Positions 10,215 to 52,989 of a DNA stretch of 64,000 nt are shown piece by piece; position 1 is the stretch's first letter, and the number at the start of each line of letters is the position of its first letter. Position numbers and translations under genes: made by a program. The notes beneath the pieces were generated by a model. It worked only from the letters and a program-made list of their open reading frames with translations, was not told the origin of the DNA and did no database searches. Source of the stretch: Phycisphaerae bacterium (GTDB lineage: Bacteria > Chloroflexota > Anaerolineae > 4572-78 > J111); assembly GCA_028285035.1 (NCBI GenBank), contig JANQQF010000108.1, positions 1 through 64,000 of the forward strand, written 5' to 3'.

Positions 10215-10289
10215 CCGATATTTTTTTGCATTCTGCGTAAGCCCTAAAATAGCCGTCCCTAGTTGATAATTTGAAATAAATCCCCTTGC

Positions 10290-10331
10290 AAAAACGGGGC
10301 AAACCTAAATGTTTAGACTTGTCCCGTTTTT
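10290..10331. terminator. Rho-independent terminator, bidirectional
   Basis: The arms 10290-10302 and 10319-10331 (AAAAACGGGGCAA / TTGTCCCGTTTTT, one G-T wobble) form a GC-centred stem with T runs on both strands. It closes the Liv operon on the plus strand and the convergent gene at 10408-10971 on the minus strand. Confidence 0.8.
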
Positions 10332-10407
10332 ATTAAGAATTAGGGCAAATAGGCTCAATGGTTTGGCTTATTTGTCACTAAAAAATTTCATTGTTGAGAT
10401 CGAAATG

Positions 10408-10971: not shown

Positions 10972-11510
10972 TGACTCCTTGTATATTGATTTGTATTTTT
11001 GCTTAAAATAGACCAGTAAGCTGCTAGAGACGTGACGAACATACATAGAAGCATCTGTCGATCTATTCAGGCTTCGTGAATAGCTAATATTTGTGGCTTA
11101 TAAACCCTTGATGTTCTTTCTAAACAAGAGTTATCCTGGCACCTTTGTGGGGTATCTATATAGTTAATTATAATATCTTTCAAGATATGGGCAAGCCTCT
11201 CTTAAAATCTTTCAGGGTGATTGTAGGCTTGAACGGGATGAAGAAAATTAGTCATACGGTGTTCGATGCCAACCTTGCAATAATATTAACATACGAGCGT
11301 CACAAATACGTTTAAAAAGCGTCACCTTTTTAAGGTTTCGATAAATTCGACCAAAAAAGTGGGTCAGCTCAAACGACTTGACCAGCAACCTGTTAACGCT
11401 TTCACTGATTTCCCAAAGATTGTCTTTTTGTATTGTTTTCATTACAATCTTTGAATGCTCGTGCTTTCACACTCAACTTAATCACAAATAATCAATTAAG
11501 GAGGCTGATG
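10972..11510. other. 539-base intergenic region with an operator-like palindrome
   Basis: This divergent spacer separates the hypothetical gene from the LuxR-type regulator. The only notable structure is a perfect 10-bp inverted repeat, CAAAGATTGT at 11414-11423 and ACAATCTTTG at 11444-11453, about 60 bases before the regulator start. It could be an autoregulatory operator. A 64-codon minus-strand frame in the middle (11248-11442) has no ribosome-binding site and is not called. Confidence 0.45.
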
Positions 11511-12533
11511 ATGAATCTTAATACACAACAAACCTTTACTTTGTTGAAGATCATTGAAAATTTGTCGACGAATTTAGACATTGTGACGATCCGTCAACAA
11601 ATTGCTGAAGATCTATTAGCGTTGTTAGATGCGGATTATTACGCCTCCTATGTCTGGGACCCTGGCACGCAAACATTTGGTCAACGGGCATATCTAAATA
11701 TGAATCCTGATAATCTCAATCGCTATGAAACCTATTATCAATTTCATGATCCTATCACCCACACCCTACAGCAATTCAAACGTGCCGTACCTGTTTCTAA
11801 AGTGATGCCCCATCGTGATTTGATCAAAACCGAGTTTTTTAATGACTTCTTGTATCGCGATGGCCTTTATTTTGGCATCAATTTGTATGCCTATGATGGC
11901 TCTTTGAATATTGGTGATTTGCGAATTTGGCGTAATCGCCGTCGTTCAGATTTTTCAGAGCGAGACATCCAAATTTTGGAATTACTCAAACCCCACTTTA
12001 CCAATGCCCTAAGAAATATTCGCCTCTTTCATAAAGCGTATGAACTGAAAGAACCTGATTCCTGCGCCCTCTTTATTTTTCGAGGGCAAAAAATGATCCA
12101 ACGGAATCAACGAGCTTTGGATTTAGAGCAAAATTTACCCCCTGCTGTGTTTAAGGCCCTGTTACAACAGATCAAAACATCCTTACGAACCAATCAAATT
12201 GCGCTTTCTTTCGGGATATTTTCTCTATCATTTCATACCTTGAGTGATGATGTCACGGGACATCCCTTGGTCTCGGTCCAAGTGTATCGGAATGCCCAGA
12301 ATCGGTTGGATAAGGCCTGGTTGATGGCTGTTTATCGTGTGACCCAACGTGAGGCTGAAATTGTCCTCAACATTTTGGAAGGGCTGTCCGATGAAGAGAT
12401 TGCCCAAAAATGTCACATCACCTTTCACACAGTACGCAGTCATGTCAAAAATATTTTCCTCAAGCTCAATGTCAACAGTCGGACCGAATTGGTCTACAAG
12501 CTTTTTAGCTCCTTAATCCACATCGATACGTAA
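11511..12533 (+). CDS. LuxR-family transcriptional regulator with N-terminal GAF-like sensor region
   Basis: This is a 340-residue regulator. The C-terminal ~60 residues are a canonical LuxR/FixJ helix-turn-helix (VTQREAEIVLNILEGLSDEE, then VRSHVKNIFLKL). Residues 1-170 look like a GAF-type small-ligand or redox sensor domain. There is no receiver domain. AAGGAGG ends six bases before ATG 11511; an adjacent ATG at 11508 is too close to it. The gene lies about 100 bases upstream of an amide/urea-type ABC operon in the same orientation and probably controls it. The GAF ligand is unknown. Confidence 0.85.
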   Translation: MNLNTQQTFTLLKIIENLSTNLDIVTIRQQIAEDLLALLDADYYASYVWDPGTQTFGQRAYLNMNPDNLNRYETYYQFHDPITHTLQQFKRAVPVSKVMPHRDLIKTEFFNDFLYRDGLYFGINLYAYDGSLNIGDLRIWRNRRRSDFSERDIQILELLKPHFTNALRNIRLFHKAYELKEPDSCALFIFRGQKMIQRNQRALDLEQNLPPAVFKALLQQIKTSLRTNQIALSFGIFSLSFHTLSDDVTGHPLVSVQVYRNAQNRLDKAWLMAVYRVTQREAEIVLNILEGLSDEEIAQKCHITFHTVRSHVKNIFLKLNVNSRTELVYKLFSSLIHIDT

Positions 12534-12637
12534 TTCCAACAAAAATACCCCCAAAATTAGGGATAGTTTTTTCGATTTGCCTCCTCTATCATAGGTCTAT
12601 TCTGAAATTACCAGATAACAAGATATAGGAGGAGACG

Positions 12638-13828
12638 ATGAAGTTAAATCGACGTACATTTCTGAAGATGTCGGCTGTCGGCGTGGGTGCTGTTTTAACT
12701 AGCCCGTTATTATCAGCCTGCTCATTTGGCGGTGGAGAGACGGGACCGATCAAAGTTGGCTTGTTGATTACTTATACCGGACCCGCCGGCTTATTTGGCC
12801 CCCCGACTGAAAATGCGGCCCGTTTGGCTGTCAGCGAGATTAATGAAGCCGGTGGGGTATTAGGTCGTCAGCTTGAGTTGGTGATTGGGGATGACGAAAC
12901 GACTCCTCAAAAAGCCAATGAGGAGGCCAATCGTTTGGTCTTGCAGGAAGAAGTTGACATCATGATTGGGATGCACTCCAGTGCTAGTCGGGAAGCCGCT
13001 TTGCCTGTTGTGCAAGAGGCTGACAAGGTTTATATCTATACCCCCGTGTACGAAGGCCAAACCTGCGAGAAGAATCTTTATGCCTTGGGGGAAGTTCCCA
13101 ATCAGCAGATTAGCCCCGTCATCCCCTATATTATGACCGAATTTGGTGGCTCGAACTGGTTCTTTATTGGCAATGATTATATTTGGCCCCGAACCTCAAA
13201 TGAGGCGGCCCGGGCTGCCGTTGAAGCAGCCGGTGGAACCGTGGTGGGTGAAGATTATGTTCCGCTTGGCACCTCAGACTACAGTGCCGTTATTAGTCGC
13301 ATTCAAGCTACTGCCCCAGATCATATTTTCCAAACTTTGGTTGGTGGTGATGGTATCGCCTTTCAGAAACAGCTATTCGATTTTGGCGTAACCCAAGATG
13401 TGCAGGTTTTGACCGCCTTGCTGGAAGAGAACAGTGCGGCTGCCTTGGGCGAAGCTGCCGCCGGGGTCCGCTCCAGCTTTGCGTATTTCCACAATCTTGA
13501 CACGCCTAACAATCAAGCCTTCCTTGAAGAATATTTTGAAGCATATGGGAGTGACGCCCCTCCTGTCACCTCTTTGAGTGAGTCTGTTTATGAAGCGATC
13601 CACATTTTTGCCCGTGGCGCGGAGACCGCTGGTTCCTTAGCGACGGATGAACTATTAGCTGGTATGGATGGCGTTACGTTTGATGGACCGCGCGGTGAAG
13701 TTGTGTTGCAGGGGAGTAATCGCCATATGGATCAACATATTTATCTTGGTGAGGTACAGGCTGATGGTCAATTCGAAGTGATTCACGATTTTGGCCTTGT
13801 TGAGTCGGGTGAGGTTTGTCGGATTTAA
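12638..13828 (+). CDS. UrtA/AmiC-type substrate-binding lipoprotein
   Basis: This 396-residue binding protein (Peripla_BP_5/6 fold) has a Tat-like signal NRRTFLK at residues 4-10 and a lipobox LSAC with the modified cysteine at C28, so it should be exported folded and lipid-anchored. The motifs YEGQ, PNQQ and GNDYIWPRTSN are typical of the urea/amide branch (UrtA, AmiC, FmdD) rather than of leucine-binding LivK. AGGAGGAGACG precedes the ATG. The stop codon overlaps the next start (TAATG), so translation is coupled. Urea, formamide or another short amide is the likely ligand, which fits the amidase at the end of the operon. Confidence 0.88.
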   Translation: MKLNRRTFLKMSAVGVGAVLTSPLLSACSFGGGETGPIKVGLLITYTGPAGLFGPPTENAARLAVSEINEAGGVLGRQLELVIGDDETTPQKANEEANRLVLQEEVDIMIGMHSSASREAALPVVQEADKVYIYTPVYEGQTCEKNLYALGEVPNQQISPVIPYIMTEFGGSNWFFIGNDYIWPRTSNEAARAAVEAAGGTVVGEDYVPLGTSDYSAVISRIQATAPDHIFQTLVGGDGIAFQKQLFDFGVTQDVQVLTALLEENSAAALGEAAAGVRSSFAYFHNLDTPNNQAFLEEYFEAYGSDAPPVTSLSESVYEAIHIFARGAETAGSLATDELLAGMDGVTFDGPRGEVVLQGSNRHMDQHIYLGEVQADGQFEVIHDFGLVESGEVCRI

Positions 13829-14685
13829 TGATGGATGTAGCATTGCTCTTGACCCTAGGCCTCAATGCCTTGAGCCTTATTCTGATCCTAATCCTGATTG
13901 CGATGGGGTTGGCCATCGTATTTGGCCTGATGGGCGTTATCAATTTAGCCCACGGTGAGTTCTTTATGCTTGGGGCTTATGTCGTCTTTGTGACTACAGC
14001 CGTAGGTCTCAATGTTTGGTGGGGGCTGTTATTCGCCCCTCTCATTTTGGCTGGTGTTGGTCTACTTCTTGAGCGCGGCGTTATCCAATATCTATACAAA
14101 AGACCTTTGGAAACCGTGTTAGCGACTTGGGGCGTGAGTATTGTGTTGCGTCAAGTGGTCGAAATCGGCTTTGGTCGTGATTTTCAATACATCCCTCACC
14201 CTCTACCTGGCTCTTTCACGCTATTTGGTTTGGAATATCCTTTGTATCGCACCTTTGTGATGGGAGCGGCAATCCTGATTATTGCTTGCTCCTACTTTAT
14301 CTTGCAGCGGACCACGTGGGGCTTGAATATTAGAGCCGCGATTGATAATCCCGAGATGGCTCTCGCTCTTGGCATCAATACCGCTCAAATATATCGGTTC
14401 ACCTTTGCCTACGGGGCCGCCTTGGCAGGATTGGCGGGCGCATTGATGGCCCCTTTAGTCAGCATTCACCCAGGAATGGGACTTGATTTTGTTGTGGAAG
14501 CCTTTTTTGTAGTGATTGTAGGCGGTCTAGGAAAGCTGGTCGGCCTAGCCGCCGGTGCGATTAGTATCGGGGCCACGCAGAGCATCCTCTCGTTCTTTAG
14601 CAATGCAGTTGTGGCCCGGATTGTCGTGTTGTTGCTCGCCATCGGCATTCTACAAATTCGGCCAAAAGGATTATTCAGCACATGA
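13828..14685 (+). CDS. UrtB/LivH-type ABC permease
   Basis: This is a permease of about 285 residues with some eight hydrophobic segments and the family motif GVINLAHGEFFMLGAY (residues about 33-48). The C-terminal RPKGLF ending is typical. ATG 13828 overlaps the stop of the binding-protein gene, and the last four bases overlap the next gene (ATGA). It pairs with the permease half of the downstream fusion protein. Confidence 0.9.
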   Translation: MMDVALLLTLGLNALSLILILILIAMGLAIVFGLMGVINLAHGEFFMLGAYVVFVTTAVGLNVWWGLLFAPLILAGVGLLLERGVIQYLYKRPLETVLATWGVSIVLRQVVEIGFGRDFQYIPHPLPGSFTLFGLEYPLYRTFVMGAAILIIACSYFILQRTTWGLNIRAAIDNPEMALALGINTAQIYRFTFAYGAALAGLAGALMAPLVSIHPGMGLDFVVEAFFVVIVGGLGKLVGLAAGAISIGATQSILSFFSNAVVARIVVLLLAIGILQIRPKGLFST

Positions 14686-16469
14686 CCCAGCAACTTTTGT
14701 CCCGTGACCGTGCTTTTTCGTTTATATTCACACTCCTTTTGTTGCTATTTCCTTTTTTGGCTGGTCCTTACTGGATTAGCCAAATTGGCAAATTTTTAAT
14801 TTTTGCCATTTTGGCCCTGAGCCTCGATTTAATTTGGGGTTACACTGGCGTCCTTAATCTAGGACACGCCATCTTTTTTGGCTTGGGGGCCTATGTGATG
14901 GCTCTAGTTCTCAAAGAATTGCCACCAGGATACCAGTATCTGGGCTTAATAGCTGCCGTGCTGTTGCCTGCTTTGGCTGGTTTAATCATTGGTGGCCTGC
15001 TGTTTTATCGGAATATCAGCGGCCCTTACTTTGCCATTGTCACCTTAGCAATTGCCCTAGTTGCTGTTCAGGTTTCCATTGAATGGTACACTGTCACGGA
15101 CGGATTTAATGGCCTCACCGGGATTCCGATGTTGAAGCTAGTTTTGCCGACTTTGGAGCCCATCCGTTTGGGACGAACGGGGATGTTTTATCTGATTGGG
15201 GCCGTGCTCTTAGTGGCCTATTATCTCACCACCCGTTTAGTCGCTTCTCCCTTTGGCCGTTTACTGGTCGCCATTCGGGATAATGAGGCTCGGACTGAAT
15301 TTTTTGGCTATAACACCGCCTGCTACAAAACATTGGTCTTTGGGCTGGCTGGGGGCTTGGCTGGGTTAAGTGGGGCGTTGTATGCGCCCTACACTGGCTT
15401 TGTCTCCCCTGAGCTGCTTGGCTTTATTTTTTCAACCGAGATTTTAATTTGGGTGGCCGTTGGGGGGCGGGGTACCTTGCTTGGCCCTGCATTGGGGGCG
15501 GTGTTCATCAATGTTGTCGCCACCTCGTTGAGCGACCTTTTCCTTTACTACTGGCAGGGTATTATTGGCCTCCTATTTGTGTTGATTGTCCTCTTCTTCC
15601 CAGATGGCTTATTTATGTGGATCGTCCGTCGTTTGCGGCTTCGGGAAGATGGTGTGCTACCGCAATTGATTGCCAGGTCATCAACCTCAATACAAGAACA
15701 ACCTGTCCCTAAAGCATCCTCACCTTCTCTTCTTGATGTGAGCGATTTAAGTAAGAAATTTGGTGATTTAACCATTATTAACCAACTAGATTTTAAGCTA
15801 GCGTCGGGCGAATTACGATGTGTGGTTGGGCCAAATGGAGCGGGTAAAACGACTCTATTTAGCCTGATCAGCGGTGGTTTATCGGCTTCTTCTGGGGAAG
15901 TCCACTTTGCTGGACAGTCGATCACTCGTCTGAAAGCGTGGCAGATTGCGGCCTTGGGTATTGGCCGTAAGTTTCAGATTCCCAATGTCTATGATACTCA
16001 GCCCGTTTGGGCTAACTTGGCCATTGCGGCCCAGCCGGATAAACAGAATTTCTTGCGATTGCTTCGCTCTGAATCGACCATCATTCTTAGCCCACTCATC
16101 CTTGAGTTGCTTGAGCAGATTAAATTGTTGGATCGTTTGACGACACCCGCCGCACAACTCTCTCACGGCGAGCGGCAGTGGCTGGAAATCTGTATGCTTT
16201 TGGCGAGTCGTCCCCAATTGCTCTTGTTGGACGAACCCACTGCCGGTTTGACGGTTGATGAAACTCAACGAACGGCTCAATTAATCCATCAAATCTATGA
16301 GGCAGAGCAGCTTCCCATCATTGTGATTGAGCACGATATTGGCTTTGTTCGACGGATGGTCGGTGAAATTACGGTGCTGCATCGTGGTCAAGTCTTGGCT
16401 GAAGGACCTTTAAGCGAGATTGAAGCCAATCCTGAGGTTCAATCCGTCTACTTGGGGCGAGCCATATGA
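14682..16469 (+). CDS. Fused UrtC/LivM-type permease and UrtD/LivG-type ATPase
   Basis: This 595-residue protein joins two subunits that are usually separate. Residues 1-325 form a LivM/UrtC-like membrane domain (GYTGVLNLGHAIFFGLGAYV). A Ser/Pro/Gln linker (about 325-350) leads to a complete ATPase with Walker A GPNGAGKTT, the FQIPNVYD segment of UrtD-like ATPases, signature LSHGERQWLEICMLL and Walker B LLLLDEPTAGL. The fusion fixes a 1:1 ratio of permease and ATPase. Both ends overlap neighbouring genes by four bases (ATGA), so the whole operon is translationally coupled. Confidence 0.92.
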   Translation: MTQQLLSRDRAFSFIFTLLLLLFPFLAGPYWISQIGKFLIFAILALSLDLIWGYTGVLNLGHAIFFGLGAYVMALVLKELPPGYQYLGLIAAVLLPALAGLIIGGLLFYRNISGPYFAIVTLAIALVAVQVSIEWYTVTDGFNGLTGIPMLKLVLPTLEPIRLGRTGMFYLIGAVLLVAYYLTTRLVASPFGRLLVAIRDNEARTEFFGYNTACYKTLVFGLAGGLAGLSGALYAPYTGFVSPELLGFIFSTEILIWVAVGGRGTLLGPALGAVFINVVATSLSDLFLYYWQGIIGLLFVLIVLFFPDGLFMWIVRRLRLREDGVLPQLIARSSTSIQEQPVPKASSPSLLDVSDLSKKFGDLTIINQLDFKLASGELRCVVGPNGAGKTTLFSLISGGLSASSGEVHFAGQSITRLKAWQIAALGIGRKFQIPNVYDTQPVWANLAIAAQPDKQNFLRLLRSESTIILSPLILELLEQIKLLDRLTTPAAQLSHGERQWLEICMLLASRPQLLLLDEPTAGLTVDETQRTAQLIHQIYEAEQLPIIVIEHDIGFVRRMVGEITVLHRGQVLAEGPLSEIEANPEVQSVYLGRAI

Positions 16470-37117: not shown

Positions 37118-38377
37118 ATGAAGCTAACAAACAACGAAAATTTAATGAACTGGCTGATGCCGCGTGCTATTGATTGGATTGCGCTCGTGTTGTACTTAGG
37201 GTGTATCACAATCTACACTTACCTTGCGCTGACTGGGCATTTAGAGGCATCAGCTTGGCTGACGATTGGCGCGGTCTTTGTTGGTATTAGCCTTTTGATC
37301 ACGATTGACCGTGTTGAGTATCACCGCTTTGGCGAACAACTGCCGGTCAAAATTGCTGGTTCATTCCTTTTATTACGCCTGGCGATCATTATTGGTTTTG
37401 GTTTTTCTGATGGCCTCGGGTTTCAAGAATGGCAAAGCTTTATCGCTATAAGTGTGATGTTCTTTATGTTCTTTATAATAGGTCAGAGTTATGGTCTGTC
37501 GGGGCAAGCTTGGACGATGTATCTCTTGGGGCGTTTCCGCCCTGAAACTGATAGCCCACCAAGTGATGAAGGCACCACTCTCCTTTTCATCGTAATTATG
37601 AGCGTTATGTTACTTTTTGTCTTTTCCATTGCTTACTTGGTTCGACGCGAGCGGTCGGCGCGACAAGAAAGCGAACAACTACTTGCCGAATTGGAAACGT
37701 CCCACCAACGTCTACAAAATTATGCGGAGAAGGTGTCAGAGCTAGCCACGACCGAAGAACGTAATCGGCTGGCCCGAGAAATTCACGACAGCTTGGGTCA
37801 TTACATGACCGTCATCAATGTGCAGTTGGAGAAAGCCATTGCCTTTCGAGATCGCGCCCCAGACGAGGCAGATCAGGCTATTCAGGATGCTAAATATTTA
37901 GCGAGTGAAGCCTTGAATGACATCCGCCGCTCGGTGAGCACATTGCGTAGTGTCCCAGAACCCTTTATGTTTGTACAATCGGTACGGTCGTTGGTGAGGA
38001 ATATGGAGGGGAACGGTTTTACAATAGAACTCAATATTCAGGGTGATGCGGCAGGGTACTCCGATCAATCGTTACAAACGCTCTATCGCGCCGTGCAAGA
38101 GGGCCTGACCAATATCCAAAAGCACGCGAAGGCCAATCACGTGACCATTACCGTTGACTTACAAGATCAAATGGCTGATTTGACCATTGTTGATGATGGT
38201 GAGGGGTTTGACCCAATCAAAGTTAAGAATGTGGGTGGCGGACATTACGGTCTGCAAGGGGTGCGCGAACGTCTTGAATTGATCCGGGGTTCCCTCAACT
38301 TGGAGAGTGCACCTCAACAAGGCACACGACTGATGATTACGGTGCCAAAAAATCCGCTGGTGTTAGTGACCAACTGA
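37118..38377 (+). CDS. NarL-type sensor histidine kinase (HisKA_3)
   Basis: This 419-residue kinase has about five N-terminal membrane helices (residues 15-185), a short coiled coil and then a HisKA_3 dimerisation domain with the phospho-acceptor motif REIHDSLGHYM (His at about 222). A HATPase domain follows (QEGLTNIQKHAK, DDGEGF, GLQGVRERLELI). It lacks a recognisable periplasmic sensor and therefore resembles intramembrane-sensing kinases such as LiaS/DesK, which respond to envelope stress. That fits its position divergent to a MacB-like exporter. Its partner regulator follows after a repeat. Confidence 0.9.
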   Translation: MKLTNNENLMNWLMPRAIDWIALVLYLGCITIYTYLALTGHLEASAWLTIGAVFVGISLLITIDRVEYHRFGEQLPVKIAGSFLLLRLAIIIGFGFSDGLGFQEWQSFIAISVMFFMFFIIGQSYGLSGQAWTMYLLGRFRPETDSPPSDEGTTLLFIVIMSVMLLFVFSIAYLVRRERSARQESEQLLAELETSHQRLQNYAEKVSELATTEERNRLAREIHDSLGHYMTVINVQLEKAIAFRDRAPDEADQAIQDAKYLASEALNDIRRSVSTLRSVPEPFMFVQSVRSLVRNMEGNGFTIELNIQGDAAGYSDQSLQTLYRAVQEGLTNIQKHAKANHVTITVDLQDQMADLTIVDDGEGFDPIKVKNVGGGHYGLQGVRERLELIRGSLNLESAPQQGTRLMITVPKNPLVLVTN

Positions 38378-38388
38378 CGATAACTTTT

Positions 38389-38456
38389 CCTCACCCCCAA
38401 CCCTCTCTCCCTGCGGAGAGGGGGAGTCCGTAGCGAAGTGCAGGACGGGGGTGAGG
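38389..38456. repeat. 68-bp palindromic intergenic repeat between kinase and regulator
   Basis: CCTCACCCCC (38389-38398) pairs with GGGGGTGAGG (38447-38456), enclosing a second stem of CCCTCTCTCC with GGAGAGGG. The wording matches a dispersed palindrome common in many bacterial genomes. It may reduce or stabilise read-through between the two genes. Confidence 0.55.
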
Positions 38457-38477
38457 GCTTCTTTCATAGGAGACAAT

Positions 38478-39146
38478 GTGAGCAATCAGACCGAAACTGT
38501 AAGAGTACTGGTAGTAGATGATCAACAATTAATGCGTGATGGCTTGGCCTCTTTGTTGGGGATTCAAGACGGTATTGAAATTGCTGGGGTGGCTGGTGAT
38601 GGGCAGGAAGCGGTTGAGCAGGCCCTGAGTCTAACGCCTGACGTGATTTTGATGGATATTCGGATGCCCATTTTGGATGGGATCGCAGCCACTGAGAAAA
38701 TTCGGCAGCAGTTACCAAGTTGTCAGGTTTTGATGCTCACAACATTTGATGACGATGAGTACATTGTCAAGGCGTTGACAGCGGGAGCGAGTGGCTACCT
38801 GCTCAAAGATATTCCAGCCCAAGATTTGGCGAAAGCGGTTCATCTGGCCCACCATGGCGTTTATCAGCTTGAACCGTCAATCGCTGGAAAATTGGTTGGG
38901 GCGTTGAGCAATGTAAAACCTGCCTTTCCTCAACCGGCACCCCCTACCCAAATCGCTGACTTGACCGAACGAGAGGTTGAGGTGCTGCGCCTGATCGCTA
39001 CAGGCGCGACAAACCGTGAGATTGCTGATACACTGGTCATTAGTGAAGGGACGGTCAAAAACCACGTCTCCAATATCCTCAGCCGCTTGGCCTTGCGAGA
39101 TCGTACGCAAGCGGCAATTTACGCCCGCGAACATGGCTTGGTTTAA
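38478..39146 (+). CDS. NarL/LuxR-type response regulator
   Basis: This 222-residue regulator has a receiver domain with the acidic pair VVDDQQ, the phospho-acceptor in LMDIRMPILDG (Asp about 54) and the conserved Lys in LLKDIPAQD. The C-terminal LuxR helix-turn-helix begins LTEREVEVLRLIATGATNRE and continues VKNHVSNILSRL. GTG 38478 has TAGGAGA six bases upstream; an earlier in-frame GTG at 38451 lies inside the repeat. It is the evident partner of the kinase at 37118-38377. Confidence 0.92.
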   Translation: MSNQTETVRVLVVDDQQLMRDGLASLLGIQDGIEIAGVAGDGQEAVEQALSLTPDVILMDIRMPILDGIAATEKIRQQLPSCQVLMLTTFDDDEYIVKALTAGASGYLLKDIPAQDLAKAVHLAHHGVYQLEPSIAGKLVGALSNVKPAFPQPAPPTQIADLTEREVEVLRLIATGATNREIADTLVISEGTVKNHVSNILSRLALRDRTQAAIYAREHGLV

Positions 39147-43017: not shown

Positions 43018-45312
43018 TTAACCACCAACGATAAAACCAAGCAACCCACCTGAGCCTAACTGGGCAACTAAGCCAGCAAAGACGATAGAAACCATTGACA
43101 TCAATTTAATCAAAATGTTCAATGATGGACCAGTGGTATCCTTAAAGGGATCACCCACTGTGTCACCGACGACTGTTGCTTTGTGAGTTTCAGAGCCTTT
43201 TCCACCGTGAGCCCCTTTTTCAACATATTTCTTGGCGTTGTCCCAGGCCCCACCAGCATTTGACATCATAACCGCAGTGACAAACCCGGTGGCTAAACCA
43301 CCTGCTAAAAGACCAAGCACCCCAGCTACACCGAACAATACCCCAACAATGACTGGAACAGCAATGGCCAAGATTGAAGGAGCAATCATCTCACGTTGAG
43401 CCCCAGCAGTGCTAATGGCTACACAACTACGGTAGTCAGGGACTTGTGTTCCTTCCAGAATGCCTGGCATTTCACGGAATTGACGACGTACTTCCTGTAC
43501 CATCGCCCCAGCAGCGCGACCGACCGCACTCATTGTCATTGCTGAGAAGTACATTACAGTCATTGCACCTGCAAACATCCCAATCAAAGTCGCAGGATTG
43601 AGCAAGGTTACGTGATAGAACTCAGCCAACTGCTCCAACGTTGCTGTGGCGTAAGGAACAATGTCTCCGCTAGGCATTTGTAAACCAGGTCCACCGCCAC
43701 TGATTAAGCTGGCTCGAATTTGTTCCATATAAGAGGCCAGGAGTGCCAACGCAGTTAAAGCGGCTGAACCAATGGCGAACCCTTTACCTGTCGCGGCAGT
43801 GGTGTTACCAACGGCATCTAACTGGTCTGTTCGTTCGCGTACTTCTGGGGGTAGATCAGCCATCTCAGCGTTACCACCCGCATTGTCAGCAATCGGGCCA
43901 TAAGCATCTGTTGCCAAGGTTAAGCCTAGGGTTGAGAGCATACTAACCGCAGCAATAGCAACCCCGTACAAGCCCATCAATGGTGTTGATGCACCGCCCG
44001 GTGCATAGAAGCTGATGGCAATCCCAGCAATAACCACAACAACCGGAATAGCCGTTGAACTCATCCCAACCGCCAAACCGCCGATGATAACGGTCGCTGG
44101 CCCAGTTTCACCTTGATCGGCAATACTTTGGGTTGGTTTGTATTCATCAGAGGTATAGAATTCTGTCGCTCGACCAATCACCTCACCAACGATCAAACCG
44201 GTGATGATGGAGAACCAGAAGGCGAATGGCATATTCAAAAGCCACAAGATAGCGAAAGAGGCAATCGCAATCAACACAGAGCTGACCGTGACACTGTTGG
44301 TCAGGGCGCTCATAATTTGACCCATTGAAGCATCTTCTTTAGTGCGAACTAGGAAAATACCAACGATGGATAGAACAACCCCAATCGCAGCGATGGCTAA
44401 CGGAGCGGTGATGTAGGCGAGCTGTTCGCCGATTGAACCGCCGGTTGAAATGACCGCTGCCACCCCAAGGGCTGCCGCAGCACGTAAGGAACCAATGTAC
44501 GACTCATACAGGTCGGCTCCCATCCCAGCTACATCACCCACATTGTCACCCACGTTGTCAGCAATGGTCGCCGGATTTCGTGGATCATCCTCGGGGATGC
44601 CTGCTTCAACTTTACCTACCAAATCGGCCCCAACATCAGCCGCTTTGGTGTAAATCCCACCACCCACACGAGCGAACAGGGCCTGGGTAGAGGCTCCCAT
44701 TGCGGCACTAAGCATAATAACGGTTAATAGGGTGAGGTCGGTTTGTAAAACAAAGTAGAGAATGATGAACCAGATGGTGCTGTCAAGTAAGGCGAAGCCA
44801 ACTACAGATAGTCCCATCACGGCACCAGCGCGGAAGGCAATCTGCAGTCCACCATTCAGGCTGGTTCGGGCCGCATTTGCTGTGCGAGCCGATGCGTTGG
44901 TTGCCGTCCGCATTCCGATGTAGCCACAAATGCCGGAGAAGATACCCCCGGTGAGGAAGGCGAAGGGAACCACAAAGCTTTGCAAACCAAATCCGCTCAT
45001 AATGAGCAGGATAACAAACAAGACCGCAAAAACGATAGCCACGATGCGATATTGTTGGTTGAGATAGGCCATCGCCCCTTCCCGGACCGCTTGGGCAATT
45101 TCGATCATTCGATCTGTACCTTCATCATTTTGCATAACAGATTGATACAGATAGAAGGCCATTGCCAAAGCAATTAGAGAGCCAACAGGGGTTAACCACC
45201 AAATCCAGGGCAGACTGTCGCCACCCCCTTGAGCCACAGGCGCTGCCAAAGCAGCAGGTGCGGCTACCAATACCATAAGCAATACACCTAACATTAATGA
45301 TAGTCGTTTCAT
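43018..45312 (-). CDS. hppA: Membrane-bound proton-pumping pyrophosphatase
   Basis: This protein of 764 residues from ATG 45312 has GAGGAG upstream. The N terminus is a cleavable-looking signal (residues 1-24), followed by about 16 helices. The substrate site is complete: DVGADLVGKVE, DDPRNPATIADNVGDNVGDVAG, DAYGPIADNAGGNAEM and DTVGDPFKDTTGPSLN. At the position that separates the subfamilies it reads NTTAATGKGFAIGSAALTA, with Ala where K+-independent enzymes have Lys, so a K+-dependent enzyme is predicted. Na+ versus H+ pumping cannot be settled by eye. It couples pyrophosphate hydrolysis to an ion gradient. A longer frame to 45468 adds an implausible leader. Confidence 0.95.
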   Translation of the reverse strand: MKRLSLMLGVLLMVLVAAPAALAAPVAQGGGDSLPWIWWLTPVGSLIALAMAFYLYQSVMQNDEGTDRMIEIAQAVREGAMAYLNQQYRIVAIVFAVLFVILLIMSGFGLQSFVVPFAFLTGGIFSGICGYIGMRTATNASARTANAARTSLNGGLQIAFRAGAVMGLSVVGFALLDSTIWFIILYFVLQTDLTLLTVIMLSAAMGASTQALFARVGGGIYTKAADVGADLVGKVEAGIPEDDPRNPATIADNVGDNVGDVAGMGADLYESYIGSLRAAAALGVAAVISTGGSIGEQLAYITAPLAIAAIGVVLSIVGIFLVRTKEDASMGQIMSALTNSVTVSSVLIAIASFAILWLLNMPFAFWFSIITGLIVGEVIGRATEFYTSDEYKPTQSIADQGETGPATVIIGGLAVGMSSTAIPVVVVIAGIAISFYAPGGASTPLMGLYGVAIAAVSMLSTLGLTLATDAYGPIADNAGGNAEMADLPPEVRERTDQLDAVGNTTAATGKGFAIGSAALTALALLASYMEQIRASLISGGGPGLQMPSGDIVPYATATLEQLAEFYHVTLLNPATLIGMFAGAMTVMYFSAMTMSAVGRAAGAMVQEVRRQFREMPGILEGTQVPDYRSCVAISTAGAQREMIAPSILAIAVPVIVGVLFGVAGVLGLLAGGLATGFVTAVMMSNAGGAWDNAKKYVEKGAHGGKGSETHKATVVGDTVGDPFKDTTGPSLNILIKLMSMVSIVFAGLVAQLGSGGLLGFIVGG

Positions 45313-45802
45313 AAATTTACTCTCCTCATAGAGAATGTTTGGATATGTACGTTTCATTGTCTTTGATGACTGAGACGCACACGTTCTGTTATAAATTGAG
45401 AAATTGAGTTTGTGAAAAGGTTGAATGTGATAAATTTTATGGCAGTACGCACAAAAACGGCTCCGCATAACGTGCGAAGCCGAAACCCTCTCGTTAAAAC
45501 ATTAAAATTTGCTCTGTTTATTGAATGATTTTATCAATCAATCGCTGGCTTCATAAATTTGCCCGATTGTAAAGCGGGAGGTTGTAATTGTCAAATTATT
45601 TGTAAAAATTTGCACGAATGCTCGAACTTGGAATGAGTGTCGTAGCCTTAATCTTGCTTTAATTTGAGACTCGTACTATTTTGTTATCGTCAAGTCAAGA
45701 AATATTCAAGATTTACCTGTACAAACGGGCTGTGACCTAATGGTAAGTTTGGGTCACACCCGTTATTTATTGTTTGATGTACTTAATAGGAAAATTCGTT
45801 AC
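45313..45802. other. 490-base divergent spacer with a hairpin
   Basis: The region between hppA and the Gld-like operon is AT-rich. One stem, CGGCTCCGCA (45458-45467) with TGCGAAGCCG (45473-45482, one wobble), lies about 150 bases from the hppA start on the minus strand. It could be a leader structure or a terminator remnant. No riboswitch class is recognisable. Confidence 0.4.
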
Positions 45803-46729
45803 GTGATTCAAGCTGAAAGTTTGACAAAATACTATGGCCATCGTGCAGCAATCCGCAATGTAAGCTTTCAAGTTGACCGTGGTGAAATCTTGGGGTTTCT
45901 TGGTCCAAACGGGGCAGGTAAAACAACCACAATGCGCATCTTAACCGCTTACATGCCTCCTTCTGAAGGTACGGCTACAGTTAGTGGTTATGATGTCTTT
46001 TTGGATAGTTTTGAGGTCCGTAAACGGATCGGATATCTGCCGGAATCGGTTCCCCTCTATACCGATATGAGCCTGTGGGGCTATCTGGATTATGTAGCTG
46101 CGCTGCGAAAATTGGATAATCGTCCCGATCGTATCAGAGCCACACTTAGAAAAGTTGATTTGGAAGATCGGGCGAATACAGTGATTGGTAAGTTATCTAA
46201 GGGAATGCGCCAGCGAGTTGGTATTGCTCAAGCCATCATTCATGAGCCTGAAGTACTTATCCTAGATGAGCCAACAATTGGGTTGGACCCGAAGCAAATT
46301 ATCGAAGTCCGTCAACTGATTAAATCGTTGGGTGGTGAACATACTGTTATTCTCAGTACCCACATTCTTTCAGAGGTTGAACAAATTTGTAGCCGCGTTT
46401 TAATCATCAACCGAGGCCGAATTGCGGCTGAAGACACGCCTGCTGGTTTAGCCGCTCGTTTAGAAGGAAGTGAACGCATTCATCTCAAATTACAAGAAGC
46501 CCCTGATGATGTGTCCGAAATCTTGGAGTCGTTGCCTGAAATTGAAAAGGTCTTATCGCGTGAGGTCAACACATTTGAGGTAGAGTGTGTGGCTGGCGCA
46601 GATTGTCGGCCTGATATTGCCCGGATTGTGGTCGAAAAAGATTGGGGCTTGTTAGAGATGAATGCAATCAGTGTTAGTCTGGAAGACATTTTCCTTGAAT
46701 TGACATCTGAACAAGAGGGTATTGTGTGA
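45803..46729 (+). CDS. GldA/CcmA-like ABC exporter ATP-binding protein
   Basis: This 308-residue ATPase starts at GTG 45803 (an ATG at 45740 is also in frame, but family members begin at the MIQAESLTKYYG point). It has Walker A GPNGAGKTT, YLPESVPLYTDMSLWGYL (the gliding-type ABC segment), signature LSKGMRQRVGIAQAI and Walker B LILDEPTIGLDP, with a C-terminal ~90-residue regulatory tail. The stop overlaps the next gene (GTGA). It forms an exporter with the permease and auxiliary proteins downstream, resembling GldAFG. Confidence 0.9.
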   Translation: MIQAESLTKYYGHRAAIRNVSFQVDRGEILGFLGPNGAGKTTTMRILTAYMPPSEGTATVSGYDVFLDSFEVRKRIGYLPESVPLYTDMSLWGYLDYVAALRKLDNRPDRIRATLRKVDLEDRANTVIGKLSKGMRQRVGIAQAIIHEPEVLILDEPTIGLDPKQIIEVRQLIKSLGGEHTVILSTHILSEVEQICSRVLIINRGRIAAEDTPAGLAARLEGSERIHLKLQEAPDDVSEILESLPEIEKVLSREVNTFEVECVAGADCRPDIARIVVEKDWGLLEMNAISVSLEDIFLELTSEQEGIV

Positions 46730-47433
46730 ATACCTTGGTCATTGCCAAACGTGAATTAAAAGCATTTTTTATGTCCCCCATTGCCTACATTGTAGGAGCT
46801 GCCTTCCTCTTTATTGCCGGACTTTTTTTTGTTATCACGGTTGTCATTAGTAGCTCGGCCACGTTGTTGCAAGTCTTCAATGTTATCAGTGTCATTTTGT
46901 TATTTATTGCCCCGGTGTTAACGATGCGTCTTCTGGCTGAAGAATCACGGACAGGTACGCTTGAGTTGTTGATGACAGCCCCTGTTCGTGATTGGGAAGT
47001 GGTGCTGGGTAAATTTTTAGCGACCTTCATCTTTCTTGTCTCAATATTGACTCCAACGCTATATTATCTATTTCTCCTCACCCAGTTTGGTGCCCCTGAT
47101 GTTCCTGTCACCTTGTCTGGATATTTTGGTATTATCCTACTTGGGGCAATGCTTATCAGTCTCGGGATGTTGACCTCAGCGATGTCAGCGAACCAAGTCG
47201 TTGCTGCTGTTTTGGGGGTTGCGTTGTCTCTTTCATTTTGGCTTATTGGTGGGCTAGCGCAAAATTTTGATGGCACACTCCAACGGCTCATACGATATGT
47301 CTCGATCCAAGAGCACTTGCGTGATTTTATTTTGGGACTGATTACTTCGGCCAATATCACATATTTTCTGAGTGTAACAGCAGTTGCCTTGTTTTTAACA
47401 ATACGTGTTATCGAAATTAGGAGATGGCGTTGA
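46726..47433 (+). CDS. ABC-2 type permease, GldF-like
   Basis: This 235-residue membrane protein has six helices and the conserved EESRTGTLELLMTAPVRDWE segment that marks GldF/NosY-like ABC-2 permeases. The GTG start overlaps the ATPase stop by four bases, and its own end overlaps the next gene by ten, so the operon is tightly coupled. Confidence 0.9.
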   Translation: MNTLVIAKRELKAFFMSPIAYIVGAAFLFIAGLFFVITVVISSSATLLQVFNVISVILLFIAPVLTMRLLAEESRTGTLELLMTAPVRDWEVVLGKFLATFIFLVSILTPTLYYLFLLTQFGAPDVPVTLSGYFGIILLGAMLISLGMLTSAMSANQVVAAVLGVALSLSFWLIGGLAQNFDGTLQRLIRYVSIQEHLRDFILGLITSANITYFLSVTAVALFLTIRVIEIRRWR

Positions 47434-48974
47434 AAGCTGAGCAACTTCCTCCACATCGAGGTACATCCATTATTCGAGCTTATGCTTGGCATATTGCTGG
47501 TGTTGGCTTTTTAATTATGGTTGGGAGTGCGGTTATCTATTCTATTAACCGTACTTGGAAAGTTCATGCCGAAGTTGGAGTTGGGGTTGGCTTCGTCCTA
47601 CTTCTGGCTGCAGTTGTTTTGCGGCCTGAGGCGGTGCGTATGGTTTTGACAGGCCGCTCGGTGAAATACGCCTCAAACGCCTTGGTGATGACTTTGGCCT
47701 TCGTAGGTATTGTTGGCTTACTCAATTTACTCGCCTTCCGAAATAATATTGAATACGACTTTACCGAAACTGCTCAATTTACCTTGTCCGAGCAAACCTT
47801 GAAGGTGCTGGAAAAAATGGATCGGCCGGTGCATGTCATCGGCTTTTTTCAAACAGGTGATCCCCGTCGAGATATTGCAGAGGATTACCTTGAACGTAGC
47901 AGCCGCTTTAGCCCGTACCTTTCCTATGAATTTCATGACCCAATTGCTGAGCCAACTTTGGCCCAAAGTTATGATTTAGAGAATTATGGTTTAGTTTTTA
48001 CAAGCGGTAGTAAACGTCACGAAGCAAATACAGTCGATGAAGAAACAATTACGAGTGGCTTAATCCGAGTGACGAGTGATAAAGAAAAACGGGTCTACTT
48101 CTTGACTGGACATGGAGGACCAAATCCCCTTGACCCTTCACCCGATGGTTACAGTGAAGTTAGATCTTCTTTGGAACGGGAGAATTACATTGTTGATACC
48201 CTGAATCTTGCGACTAATTCCGATGTCGAGTTAGATGCGTCGTCAACTTTAGTTGTCAGTGGTGTTGAAAGGGAATTGCTGGAAGCAGAAGCACAATTTA
48301 TTTCAGAATGGGTGATCAACGGGGGGAAATTAATGCTTTTGGTCGATCCCCTTGATCCTATTCCTCTACAAACATTATTGAAACATTATGGTTTGTTAGT
48401 AGGGCAAGATTTGGTGGCAGATATGGACAACCATTTAGTAGGTTTGGCCCCAACATCGCCCCTTATTACTCAATATCCATTTCATGAGATTACTCAGGGG
48501 TTGAGTGGAATCGTTACATTCTTTCCCTTAGCGCGTTCAGTCTCAATTGAAATGAGTGCTGGCGATACATTTATTAATCAGCCCCTACTGACCACTAGCC
48601 CGAACAGTTGGGCTGAGGCTGACCTAGAAGGGGCTGAGCTGGTTTACAATGCGGATGAAGATGTGGCGGGTCCAATTCATATTGGGACGGCTACCGAAGA
48701 TGCGGTTAGTGGGACACGTCTCGTCGTTTTGGGCAGTGCCGATTTTGTCACGAACAAAGTGGTGAATGAGGTCGGTAATCGTGATTTGTTTATGAACACG
48801 GTCAATTGGCTCTCAGAAGAGGAAGACCTTATCTCGATAAGAGCCAAACGTGAGCCGTCTCGTGTTCTCTTTCTAACGCCATTACAAAATACAATCACAA
48901 TTGTAACTACCTTAATTGTGATCCCCGTAGCCTTCTTATTTGCTGGCATCTTTGTGTGGTGGAAACGGCGATGA
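47424..48974 (+). CDS. GldG-like ABC transporter auxiliary protein
   Basis: This 516-residue protein has two N-terminal helices, a third at about 72-92, a large extracytoplasmic domain of the ABC_transp_aux/GIFT type (VYFLTGHGGPNPLD, then INGGKLMLLVDPLDP) and a C-terminal helix (about 492-512) with a basic end. In Bacteroidetes GldG cooperates with GldA and GldF; related triads occur in many phyla with no link to gliding. The next gene starts inside its stop (ATGA). Confidence 0.85.
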   Translation: MALKAEQLPPHRGTSIIRAYAWHIAGVGFLIMVGSAVIYSINRTWKVHAEVGVGVGFVLLLAAVVLRPEAVRMVLTGRSVKYASNALVMTLAFVGIVGLLNLLAFRNNIEYDFTETAQFTLSEQTLKVLEKMDRPVHVIGFFQTGDPRRDIAEDYLERSSRFSPYLSYEFHDPIAEPTLAQSYDLENYGLVFTSGSKRHEANTVDEETITSGLIRVTSDKEKRVYFLTGHGGPNPLDPSPDGYSEVRSSLERENYIVDTLNLATNSDVELDASSTLVVSGVERELLEAEAQFISEWVINGGKLMLLVDPLDPIPLQTLLKHYGLLVGQDLVADMDNHLVGLAPTSPLITQYPFHEITQGLSGIVTFFPLARSVSIEMSAGDTFINQPLLTTSPNSWAEADLEGAELVYNADEDVAGPIHIGTATEDAVSGTRLVVLGSADFVTNKVVNEVGNRDLFMNTVNWLSEEEDLISIRAKREPSRVLFLTPLQNTITIVTTLIVIPVAFLFAGIFVWWKRR

Positions 48975-49546
48975 ATCGTCGTCTGACCCTAGGGCTGTTG
49001 GGCATCTTTATTTTACTAGGCGGATACATCTACTTTTTCATCGATATCGAGTTTGATTCAAATGAGGATGCCGACTCAATCTGGGGGGAAATTTATGCCC
49101 CTTATGATGTTGTTGAGCTTGAAATCACGACATCACAGGGTTATACGCATTTCGTTCGGACCGGAGATACGCCCGAGCGCGATTGGCAATTAATAACCCC
49201 AACCAAAATTACACCTGATGAGTTAGATCAAGTTCAGGTCAATGGTGCCGCCACTCGATTGGCAATTTTGACGATTGATCAGACGCTAACGGACGTTTCG
49301 GATTTAAGCCCATATGGCTTACTGGAACCAACAATAACTGCCACGCTGACATTAACCAATGGTCAAAAACTGACGCTTATTGGGGGGGCTGATGCCCCTG
49401 TCAATAATCAACGGTATGCTCAATTGCCTGGTGACGAGCAAACGGTGTATGTCATCTTTGATTTTGCCCTCGATGCTTTACAACTGATAGCGGCCTCACC
49501 CCCGCTTGCCCCTACTCCCTTTCCTACAATTACGCCAAACCCATAA
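48971..49546 (+). CDS. DUF4340-like protein with N-terminal anchor
   Basis: This 191-residue protein starts at ATG 48971, overlapping the previous stop as ATGA. It has an uncleaved N-terminal helix (residues 5-24) and one beta-rich repeat of the DUF4340 type (WQLITPTKITPDELDQVQVN, then LSPYGLLEPTITATLTL). Full-length relatives are often longer, with two or three repeats, so this is a short version. The C terminus is Pro/Thr-rich. DUF4340 proteins usually accompany GldG-like genes, as here. Confidence 0.82.
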   Translation: MNRRLTLGLLGIFILLGGYIYFFIDIEFDSNEDADSIWGEIYAPYDVVELEITTSQGYTHFVRTGDTPERDWQLITPTKITPDELDQVQVNGAATRLAILTIDQTLTDVSDLSPYGLLEPTITATLTLTNGQKLTLIGGADAPVNNQRYAQLPGDEQTVYVIFDFALDALQLIAASPPLAPTPFPTITPNP

Positions 49547-49929: not shown

Positions 49930-52900
49930 ATGATAGATGAGGTCAAAGAGTTAAAAGATCGATTATTTCAGACAATTGTGTGGGGCTTAATTGCCTTAGG
50001 AGTCGTAGGTGTTATTGCGGCGATGGCTTTGGATGGATTTACCTCAGCTTGGGTTTTTCGGGCCTTAGGAATTGTCGTCCTTGCTGTAGTGTCCTTAATT
50101 TTATACCGAGTTGGTCAGTATGCGGTTGCCGCGTATGTTTTGATTTTTGAATTGGTTGGAATTGTCATCGGCATTTTCCTACAATCCGATCTTCTTTCTG
50201 GAATTGCTCCCTATCTTCTGATCCCAATTATTGTTGTAGCCGGGTTACTATTGAATCCGTGGGCTATCATTGTTACCTCATTATTAGCCATCTTTCTAAC
50301 CCTAGGCTTGGTGTGGGTAACAAATCAATGGACGATTGACAATCTGCTGAGTCTGAGTCCGCCTTTTGGTTTGACCCTCCTCATTGCGGCCTTAATGGTT
50401 GGTAGCGCTCATTATCGCATTCGTTTGACGGACCTCCTCTCGAAAAATCGTAAGTTGTTGCGTGACCGTACCCGTGAGATGCTTGAAGCTCAAGAGAAAG
50501 TGGACCAATTGCAACAACGGGCAGTTAAACTTCAACAACAAGTTTTGCGAACTGAAAATGCAGCAAGCACAGCTCAAAAGAGTACTGAAGAAAAAGACAG
50601 TAAATTTTATGGAATACTGCAAGGGGTTATTCAGGAGATTAATGACTCAGCGTATAACCTTGAGGATATCATTGGCCGGGTAGCTGAAGCCCCAGTAACC
50701 AATGGTCGCGCTAGTCTTTTAACCGAGACATGGCAAAAAATTGATCGATTAAGTAATTTAGTGGTCAATCTTGAGGCGTTATCTGAAATCGAGCATGACG
50801 ATGTTACGTTGAGTTATGACTCGGTTGATCTCGGCCAGCTTATTCGAGATATGGCTAGCAGTGCTCGTGGCTTGCTGGGCGACAAAACGATCATCATTCG
50901 AGACCAAGTGCCAGATAACCTTCCCCTCATCGAAGCTGACCCTTTACGGGTTCGTCAGATTTTGATGTATTTGCTCAACAATGCCATCAAATATACCAAT
51001 GAGGGGACAATTGAGATTCAAGCCGAATTGACCGGCGATGAAGTTACTGTCTTTGTCTCTGACACAGGGGTCGGGATGCAACGTGAGGATATGGCCCTAG
51101 TCTTTGAGCAATTTGGCCGTGGACGTGACACGCAAGTGAAGGCCCAACAGGGGGCGGGTCTTGGTTTAACAATTAGTAAGAAGCTGGTCGAACTTCACAA
51201 AGGCCGAATGTGGAGTACAAGCACCCTGGGGGTTGGGTCTACGTTCTACTTTGCTCTGCCTGTGGTTGCTCCAGCCCGAACAACGCTTAGCCCGGCTCCG
51301 ATGGTAGAGGAGGCAGCCACTCTACCCAGCATCAAACCTATCCCTACCCCAACGACTGAGCCAAACATTGAGCCAGTGACCAAACCTGATATTGTATCGG
51401 TTCCGCCCACTGTGCCAGTGCCTGCTGTATCTTCTACGCCCACCAAACCTGAATTGGAGCCGGAGCGAAGTCAATCCAAACCAGAGCGTACAAAAACTGG
51501 CATTCCAGCGCCAGTCTTCCGCGATAGTCAACAAATGGCAGAATTGCGTCCGCTAATTGCCTCAAGTGGAGAAGCGAGACAGCAACTCTCCCCTGTTGCC
51601 CGATTTAGTACCGCTTACATCACCCGATTTGGGATGAGCTTGGTCGGATTTTTGCTGATTATTGTCGGGGTGGTGGCCTTACTCGCTCTGCTTTACCAAC
51701 CCTATCAATCAATTGTGGATGCACCGGTTACAGCTTCAACAGATACGCTTGTTCCTGAAGTCGTAGCTGCAGCTGAAACGCCAACACCAAGCCCTGTCGT
51801 TGATGTTGATACAGCTACATCAACAACAGTCCCTGTAACAGCAACCGATGAGGCGGCTGAAGAAAATGTAACGACGATTGTGAGTGAACCCACAGCGACA
51901 GCAACACTACCTCCAACACAAACGCCAACAACCCCACCGACGGCCATACCAACAGAAGTTCAAGTCCTGGCGGTTACGAATACACCGGAGCCTACAGTGA
52001 CGGCATTTGTGGCTCTAACAGAAACCTTGGTACCACCTTCGCCAACAGCCAGCCCTAGCCCAAGCCCCACGACGCCACCAACCGCAACCGTACAACCTCC
52101 CACCCCTTCACCGACTGCAATTTCAAATGTGAGTTCTCAAGCAGTGCCTGCTGCGCTGGTTGAGCCGGCTGAGGTGCCAAGTCGTAACATCTCTATTAAT
52201 TCATCAAATGAGGGGATTACAATTAGAAATCTGGATGGAACAGAAACAATTCTATCTGGCGTGCCTACGAACCTTGATAACAGTCGCTTAAGCTGGTCCT
52301 CTAATGGGCAAGTGGCCTTGACCTCTGACCAAACGGGAAGCCGTGATATTTTTATTGCTAGTGCGGGTGATGGACGTCTCATCAATTTGACCAACAGTCA
52401 AAGTGACGATCATCAACCCGATTGGTCGCCCGATGGTGAGCAGCTCGCCTTTAGCTCCTTCCGAGGTGGGAACTTTAATATTTTTGTGGTTGATGCTGAT
52501 GGTCAAGCCCTAACCCAACTGACCCAGAGCCGTGGTTTTGATGAGTGGCCCGCGTGGTCGCCCACAGGCCAACAAATCGCCTTTGTCTCCAGCCGAGATG
52601 GCGGTGATCGTGAAATTTATGTGATGGATGCGGATGGGAGCAATCAAACTCGATTGACCTTTAGCGGTGGTGATGATACCACGCCAGTCTGGTCGCCGGA
52701 TGGCAGCCGTATCCTGTTCACCTCAGAGCGAGATGGAGACTTGGATTTGTATGTGATTGACGCTACTGGTGGAATGCCGGAACAATTGACAAATGATAGT
52801 GCCGATGAACTTAACCCTGCTTGGGCACCTGATGGTCAAAACATTGCATTTACCTATGAGACTGAGACAACTAGCGATGTGTATACAATAGAGGCCCCAT

Positions 52901-52989
52901 CAGAGGAAGTGTCTGTGGTTGCTCAAGATGCCTGGACGCAAATTACCGATACCGCCAACAGTGAAGGGTATCCGACCTGGGTGCGGTAG
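49930..52989 (+). CDS. Sensor kinase-like protein fused to an extracytoplasmic TolB/PD40 propeller
   Basis: This 1019-residue protein begins with about five membrane helices (12-166) and a coiled coil (170-226). A HisKA-like dimerisation region follows (227-285), in which the H-box reads VIQEINDSAYNL, with Q235 where the phospho-acceptor histidine should be. The ATP-binding domain is intact: LLNNA (348-352), DTGVG (378-382) and GAGLG (408-412). A Pro/Thr/Glu linker (440-545), another helix (566-592), a Thr/Pro-rich stalk (600-740) and four or five PD40 repeats (about 785-1015, words SPDGEQLAF, SPTGQQIAF, SPDGSRILF, APDGQNIAF) complete it. The C-terminal part must lie outside the membrane. It may be a signalling pseudokinase with a surface propeller. 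Confidence 0.88.
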   Translation: MIDEVKELKDRLFQTIVWGLIALGVVGVIAAMALDGFTSAWVFRALGIVVLAVVSLILYRVGQYAVAAYVLIFELVGIVIGIFLQSDLLSGIAPYLLIPIIVVAGLLLNPWAIIVTSLLAIFLTLGLVWVTNQWTIDNLLSLSPPFGLTLLIAALMVGSAHYRIRLTDLLSKNRKLLRDRTREMLEAQEKVDQLQQRAVKLQQQVLRTENAASTAQKSTEEKDSKFYGILQGVIQEINDSAYNLEDIIGRVAEAPVTNGRASLLTETWQKIDRLSNLVVNLEALSEIEHDDVTLSYDSVDLGQLIRDMASSARGLLGDKTIIIRDQVPDNLPLIEADPLRVRQILMYLLNNAIKYTNEGTIEIQAELTGDEVTVFVSDTGVGMQREDMALVFEQFGRGRDTQVKAQQGAGLGLTISKKLVELHKGRMWSTSTLGVGSTFYFALPVVAPARTTLSPAPMVEEAATLPSIKPIPTPTTEPNIEPVTKPDIVSVPPTVPVPAVSSTPTKPELEPERSQSKPERTKTGIPAPVFRDSQQMAELRPLIASSGEARQQLSPVARFSTAYITRFGMSLVGFLLIIVGVVALLALLYQPYQSIVDAPVTASTDTLVPEVVAAAETPTPSPVVDVDTATSTTVPVTATDEAAEENVTTIVSEPTATATLPPTQTPTTPPTAIPTEVQVLAVTNTPEPTVTAFVALTETLVPPSPTASPSPSPTTPPTATVQPPTPSPTAISNVSSQAVPAALVEPAEVPSRNISINSSNEGITIRNLDGTETILSGVPTNLDNSRLSWSSNGQVALTSDQTGSRDIFIASAGDGRLINLTNSQSDDHQPDWSPDGEQLAFSSFRGGNFNIFVVDADGQALTQLTQSRGFDEWPAWSPTGQQIAFVSSRDGGDREIYVMDADGSNQTRLTFSGGDDTTPVWSPDGSRILFTSERDGDLDLYVIDATGGMPEQLTNDSADELNPAWAPDGQNIAFTYETETTSDVYTIEAPSEEVSVVAQDAWTQITDTANSEGYPTWVR

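Follow-up and report, generated by a model that had tools for sequence, protein, structure and literature searches.

Pseudo-histidine kinases are known from few studied cases, for example DivL. Propeller and histidine kinase are joined in one protein in Bacteroidetes-type hybrid systems with Reg_prop propellers, and in these the propeller stands before the kinase. Proteins carrying HisKA together with PF07494/PF07495, which we take to be the accessions of Reg_prop-type propellers, are found among the best 120 of 1022 matches of our profile search. The exact domain order of PknD is cytoplasmic kinase, membrane helix and extracellular propeller. PknD is described as a Ser/Thr kinase with an extracellular beta-propeller sensor, and PD40 is named among the domains commonly tethered to prokaryotic Ser/Thr kinases (PMC3322341, PMC2877116). 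DivL from Caulobacter is reported to be a pseudo-histidine kinase that works without kinase activity; it has Tyr at the phosphorylation site and PAS sensors, and it keeps the other histidine kinase motifs and Pro555 (PMC4211667). Related work covers how prokaryotic kinases are classified (PMC2877116), the architectures of Ser/Thr kinases (PMC1262709) and ChrS (PMC9491836).

Within the window, by which we mean the whole analysed stretch of 64,000 nucleotides, an open reading frame at 49930-52989 on the plus strand starts with ATG, runs without internal stop and encodes 1019 aa. Its parts and its upstream neighbours are as follows.

43018..45468, minus strand: membrane H+-pyrophosphatase, a neighbour whose relatives in L100, L101 and L104 lie close to the family gene (domain and locus comparison)
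45740..49546, plus strand: neighbouring genes for an ABC ATPase, an ABC-2 permease, a GldG-type protein (ABC_transp_aux) and a DUF4340 protein (Pfam, locus comparison)
49930..52989, plus strand: complete ORF of 1019 aa, probable receptor-type pseudo-histidine kinase (ORF reading, Pfam, relatives)
49960..50418, plus strand: N-terminal six-helix membrane domain, about aa 11-163, common to canonical His kinases (hydropathy, AlphaFold model, profile alignment)
50419..50580, plus strand: predicted coiled coil that prolongs TM6, about aa 164-217 (model, helix 136-212)
50581..50799, plus strand: degenerate DHp hairpin, aa 218-290 (model, no HisKA match, H-box counts)
50632-50634, plus strand: codon CAG of Q235, at the H-box position (profile alignment, column count)
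50818..51264, plus strand: HATPase_c ATP-binding domain, aa 297-445, with N351, D378, G380, G382, G408, G410 and G412 (Pfam, box residues)
51265..51591, plus strand: Pro-rich cytoplasmic linker, predicted disordered, aa 446-554 (pLDDT below 50 for most, sequence)
51610..51693, plus strand: seventh membrane helix, aa 561-588, preceded by a basic side (hydropathy, model, Lys/Arg count)
51697..52179, plus strand: Pro/Thr/Ser-rich stalk, aa 590-750, probably extracellular (model, region measurements in relatives)
52186..52986, plus strand: TolB/PD40 propeller, aa 753-1019 (Pfam, NCBIfam, model, fold match)

Pfam assigns HATPase_c to residues 337-445 (5.8e-26) and finds PD40 (2.3e-46). The Pfam list of the 1019-aa protein, made at a maximum E of 10 after most weak matches had already been dropped by the HMMER filters, holds no HisKA, no PAS and no Pkinase match. 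The NCBIfam TolB-propeller model matches with 2.9e-64 and 217.5 bits and does not reach its equivalog cut-off of 343 bits, though the fold is alike. An AlphaFold model calculated with an alignment of 40 members as input (mean pLDDT 71.7, pTM 0.40) places N-terminal helices at 2-35, 40-60, 64-83, 93-107 and 110-130, followed by a single helix at 136-212, the hairpin at 218-253/260-288, the ATP domain up to 444, a helix at 561-588 and the propeller from 753. Across most of 451-560 and 590-748 the pLDDT lies below 50. In Foldseek, the propeller part of the model matches TolB and the kinase part matches the histidine kinases 4u7n (TMt 0.88), 4zki, which is YycG with ADP (0.85), and DivL 4q20 (0.83). 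The only PADLOC match covers residues 345-427; it falls inside the ATPase domain, and a role as defence protein was rejected on this ground.

Model and hydropathy predict a cytoplasmic kinase part, a membrane helix and an extracellular propeller. Three Lys/Arg residues precede the last membrane helix (540-562) and none follows it (589-615), so the propeller of the 1019-aa protein most likely faces outside. For P0030, one of four members checked, the counts are 2 before and 1 after. The earlier note, made from the letters of this DNA, had described a kinase-like receptor with an intact ATP-binding domain, no acceptor His, and a Thr/Pro-rich stalk with PD40 propeller outside. This description is confirmed, with the outside position at the strength just given, while the interpretation attached to it is only partly supported. 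What the note had called a second membrane crossing does follow the kinase, but it is actually the seventh, after six N-terminal helices. The note had also placed the sensor C-terminally, contrary to the usual order. The propeller is indeed C-terminal, but the six-helix membrane domain precedes the kinase where sensors usually stand. Since that domain keeps its place ahead of the kinase, just as it does in the sister kinases discussed below, the propeller is an addition.

DivL is the nearest working parallel and PknD the nearest layout. Like DivL, the protein has the histidine kinase fold with a non-His residue at the acceptor position, which is what defines a pseudo-histidine kinase, and it finds 4q20 in the fold search. 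In contrast to DivL, which has PAS and Tyr, the family lacks the whole H-box and combines a six-helix membrane domain with a propeller. An orthologue of DivL would have PAS and Tyr at the site; here no PAS is listed, the residue is Q235 and there is no Tyr in 42 members. With PknD-type receptor kinases it shares the predicted layout of kinase and extracellular propeller; unlike them, its kinase has the histidine-kinase/GHKL fold instead of the protein-kinase fold, and there is an extra N-terminal six-helix domain. The Bacteroidetes-type hybrids differ from the family in the propeller that precedes the kinase and in the presence of HisKA. Such a fusion family is not described by title or abstract opening in the open-licence literature, in agreement with the earlier note, which knew no described family of this form.

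We found 42 distinct members of the family. Relatives with the same domain order lie on separate contigs, and the objection that the gene is an assembly fusion of two genes is therefore rejected. Two protein searches and one profile search of a large protein database gave at least 38 members, the window's own included; records of some of them read Anaerolineae bacterium. The profile search returned 1022 proteins above the cut-off, of which the best 120 were examined, and the E-value drops from 1e-268 at member 36 to 1e-74 at the first generic kinase. With the N-terminal part as query, 6 of 396 genomes of the class proved to contain the family, and these six belong to a single order (25 genomes examined); a phylum-wide scan found it in 1 of 400 genomes, the centre genome itself; both scans scored up to 5 candidates per genome and may miss weak members. 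A contig scan with the kinase part gave, among the best 80 of 157 loci, mostly matches over the general kinase part, and two of its loci were our entry to Chloroflexota genomes. A maximum-likelihood tree of 57 rows was built from 40 long proteins, 8 short His kinases and 9 longer kinases selected for matches covering 35-46% of the query. The 40 long proteins form one clade (100/100) apart from the 17 kinases, all 17 of which carry the canonical H-box. The long proteins of L099 and L100 equal or contain P0010 and P0012 and are excluded from the counts of 40 and 42; P0123 and P0124 are absent from the tree and the identity figures. P0036 has 826 aa and a short propeller part. Judged from these comparisons, the family is real, conserved and lineage-limited, a receptor-type pseudo-histidine kinase with the propeller probably on the surface.

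The key position is the acceptor column. An hhalign comparison of the family with eight His-bearing sister kinases gives a probability of 100 over 442 columns, the front part being shared, and sets the sisters' H-E-L on Q235-E236-I237 with gaps on either side. An ungapped count from F226 would put the His on G232 instead of Q235; there is no His either way. The placement of Q235 at the H-box position by the earlier note holds by this alignment. Over the 42 members the column reads Q17 R9 H5 G3 E2 T2 N1 S1 A1 K1, which leaves 37 non-His and no Tyr, and the following position 236 is Glu in all 42. We ran the same H-box pattern, [HY][ED][LIMFV][RK][TNSA]P, on the family and on control kinases. 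It is present in 84 of 86 generic kinases from the profile-search matches listed and in 8/8 short sister kinases, and in 0/42 family members, including the five with His. PF00512 (HisKA) is likewise absent from the precomputed Pfam lists of all 38 members listed. By sequence, most members lack the usual phospho-acceptor, and the alignments establish a lineage that is akin to membrane histidine kinases of the six-helix type, has lost the H-box and has kept the ATP domain in most members.

His in relatives was what the earlier note had named as speaking against its reading, and five members do have it: P0018, P0020, P0022, P0028 and P0035 carry His-Glu-Leu at the column, with no further H-box residues. 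Three of the five form one clade, and the tree requires at least 3 changes for His at the column; P0034, the sister of P0035, has Lys there. That these five are working kinases on the usual His position and the rest of the family decayed copies is a very improbable reading, since the remainder of the H-box is missing in those five too, and ATP domain and propeller stay conserved family-wide, unlike in decay. Some activity in this subset is nevertheless conceivable.

The ATP-binding domain was called intact by the earlier note, and the HATPase_c match with all seven box residues bears this out. Scoring N351, D378, G380, G382, G408, G410 and G412 as a set, we find it complete in 37/42 members, the 1019-aa protein included. 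Departures are seen in P0007, P0030, the L103 protein, P0123 and P0124, most clearly in P0007 and P0123, the latter missing the G1 Asp. With five of 42 members departing from the set, the ATP-gated switch proposed in the earlier note can hardly be obligatory. At the first N-box residue, 1 of the 42 members has Asn, 20 have His and 12 have Tyr; in the 1019-aa protein this residue is Tyr347. Among the generic kinases it is Asn in 71 of the 72 that match the search pattern (14 of the 86 did not match it). CheA has His at this residue. Loss of the first Asn would for this reason weaken catalysis without excluding it, and we withdrew its loss in 41/42 as proof of inactivity. Among the 40 long members the ATP domain has the highest mean pairwise identity of eight regions measured, 0.558, while the hairpin reaches 0.377. 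In the 8 short sister His kinases the hairpin is the best conserved part, with 0.604, and the ATP domain has 0.509. By these values constraint is inverted compared to the sisters, the hairpin having lost it and the ATP domain having kept it.

A conserved ATP domain might act in trans and phosphorylate the His of a sister kinase within a heterodimer. The complete ATP-box set in most members fits such a kinase, the common membrane domain and coiled coil could permit mixed dimers, and the sister kinase co-occurs. We nevertheless hold it to be decidedly unlikely, given the missing first N-box Asn, the strongly diverged hairpin sequences and the five members that depart from the ATP-box set.

The sister kinases are membrane histidine kinases of the six-helix type, accompanied by a CheY-like regulator. 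Those of L105-L108 are homologous to the family in their membrane domain, in the hairpin region and in the ATP domain; they differ in retaining SHELRTPL and HisKA and in stopping shortly behind the ATP domain. At 6/6 loci (L105-L108, L173, L174) the next gene after the sister kinase is an overlapping CheY-like regulator of 135-142 aa, with a receiver domain confirmed in L106, the one locus examined. All six copies of this regulator end in WEWR. Upstream of the sister kinase lies a look-alike gene of 452-514 aa (by eye); its L106 copy, the one examined, matches nothing in Pfam. Close orthologues of the sister kinase, defined by a threshold of at least 59% identity that was chosen after the table was seen, are present in G306, G280, G106, G327, G233 and G213; in G233 and G213 the short kinases have a smaller membrane part and match over the kinase part only. 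Five of the 6 family-bearing genomes have such an orthologue, compared to 1/19 others of the same order (Fisher p 6.5e-4; the genomes are kin). Because of this kinship, co-occurrence is a lead and not a test, and the sister kinase with its CheY-like regulator is a candidate partner of the pseudokinase.

In a DivL-like role, the hairpin would dock the phosphorylated CheY-like regulator of the sister operon, and the receptor would report this state to the cell surface or to a different kinase. The co-occurrence, the overlapping regulator gene at every locus and the fold match to 4q20 make this role possible, and it stays doubtful for several reasons. Genome kinship confounds the co-occurrence; the long protein occurs in G271 where a close sister kinase is lacking, G106 shows the reverse, and the sister kinase is known from the relatives' genomes instead of the window's own. 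The low hairpin identity also speaks against this role, as does the H-box Pro, which DivL keeps and the family does not.

The gene neighbourhood does not name a partner either. Upstream in the window follow the H+-pyrophosphatase on the opposite strand, ABC ATPase, permease, GldG-type gene, DUF4340 gene and then the family gene. In L100, L101 and L104, genes 70-77% identical to this pyrophosphatase are found close to the family gene. L100 shows the window's gene order too; its GldG ORF is shorter, and DUF4340 finds no match there. In L099 the ABC block lies about 6 kb from the family gene, where the stretch examined ends; between them, at 9505-15565, we see a Ser/Thr kinase that has an AAA ATPase domain and a sensor kinase that looks FHA-like by eye. 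In L101 and L104 the pyrophosphatase adjoins the family gene and no ABC block is seen; the stretches examined of L102 and L103 contain neither. The linkage to Gld-like genes that the earlier note had proposed to check is thus seen in the window, in L100 and at a distance in L099, and is absent from the stretches L101-L104, where no ABC/GldG genes were found. It is a shared neighbourhood and not a demonstrated operon. A fixed operon with a response regulator is not supported, as a reading of the ORF lists of the window and L099-L104 shows none immediately next to the family gene. A few kb away from it, L099 (13157-15565), L100 (5866-7470) and L102 (16082-17035) each have a receiver-like ORF. 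About 11 kb upstream of the family gene in the window, a HisKA_3-type sensor kinase and then a response-regulator-like gene (37118-39146) are unlinked to it. That no fixed partner gene adjoins speaks against the pseudo-histidine kinase reading.

The cytoplasmic linker varies from 39 to 292 aa in the 40 members measured. Because it is long and flexible or disordered, a rigid lever from propeller to kinase is, in the modelled structure, unlikely. A motif of acidic residue, Thr and aliphatic residue occurs in the linkers of 27/42 members; it is absent from the window's protein and 14 others. Its density in 40 members is 14.06 per 1000 aa in the linker and does not exceed 1.06 in any of five other regions, and a related regular expression is found in 28/40 linkers, compared to a shuffle mean of 6.0 and maximum of 13. 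These motifs could be phosphorylated by Ser/Thr kinases and dock FHA proteins, which would give a His-independent output. Genomes with 26-50 FHA matches each (6 genomes) and 27-41 Ser/Thr kinase matches each at E <= 1e-40 (4 genomes) would offer many possible partners. A Ser/Thr kinase ORF in L150 (G213) carries such an acidic-Thr motif after the kinase, then a hydrophobic segment and PD40-like repeats. It is the protein-kinase counterpart of the family layout, and G213 also carries the long family. We still consider this output unlikely, as the window's own protein is among those without the motif and the motif was composed after inspection of the sequences. In addition, it is not enriched in ORFs from 29/30 FHA loci (0.36 vs 0.70 shuffled; a rough ORF pick, that of L132 not FHA-like by eye) and hardly in 30 Ser/Thr kinase tails (1.01 vs 0.71 shuffled). 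As a general trait of the sampled FHA or Ser/Thr-kinase ORFs the motif is not supported by these values.

We conclude that the 1019-aa protein is probably a receptor-type pseudo-histidine kinase with output by protein contact and not by phosphate transfer from a His of its own. For the family, we infer ATP binding, ligand and output. The N-terminal membrane domain and the continuous helix, one helix running into the coiled coil, would set the state of the DHp-ATP module, and predicted binding of ATP or ADP would stabilise this state in most members. The putative outside propeller would bind an envelope or extracellular partner and, via its flexible tethers, position or cluster the receptor. 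Output would then occur by contact with another protein, for example a canonical histidine kinase or the response regulator of such a kinase. In a quite unlikely combination of the ideas above, the dead kinase core would read the sister kinase's CheY-like regulator in its phosphorylated form and pass this state to the propeller or, via the linker, to a Ser/Thr-kinase/FHA network. If true, this would be a bridge between two-component and Ser/Thr signalling that runs partly from inside to outside.

For the family, the comparisons describe a whole clade without H-box that keeps the ATP domain in most members and carries a propeller as in receptor Ser/Thr kinases. Since a relative with intact H-box and its regulator co-reside with the family in most of the family-bearing genomes examined, the role that an ATP-binding kinase core may play without phosphotransfer can be asked here directly.
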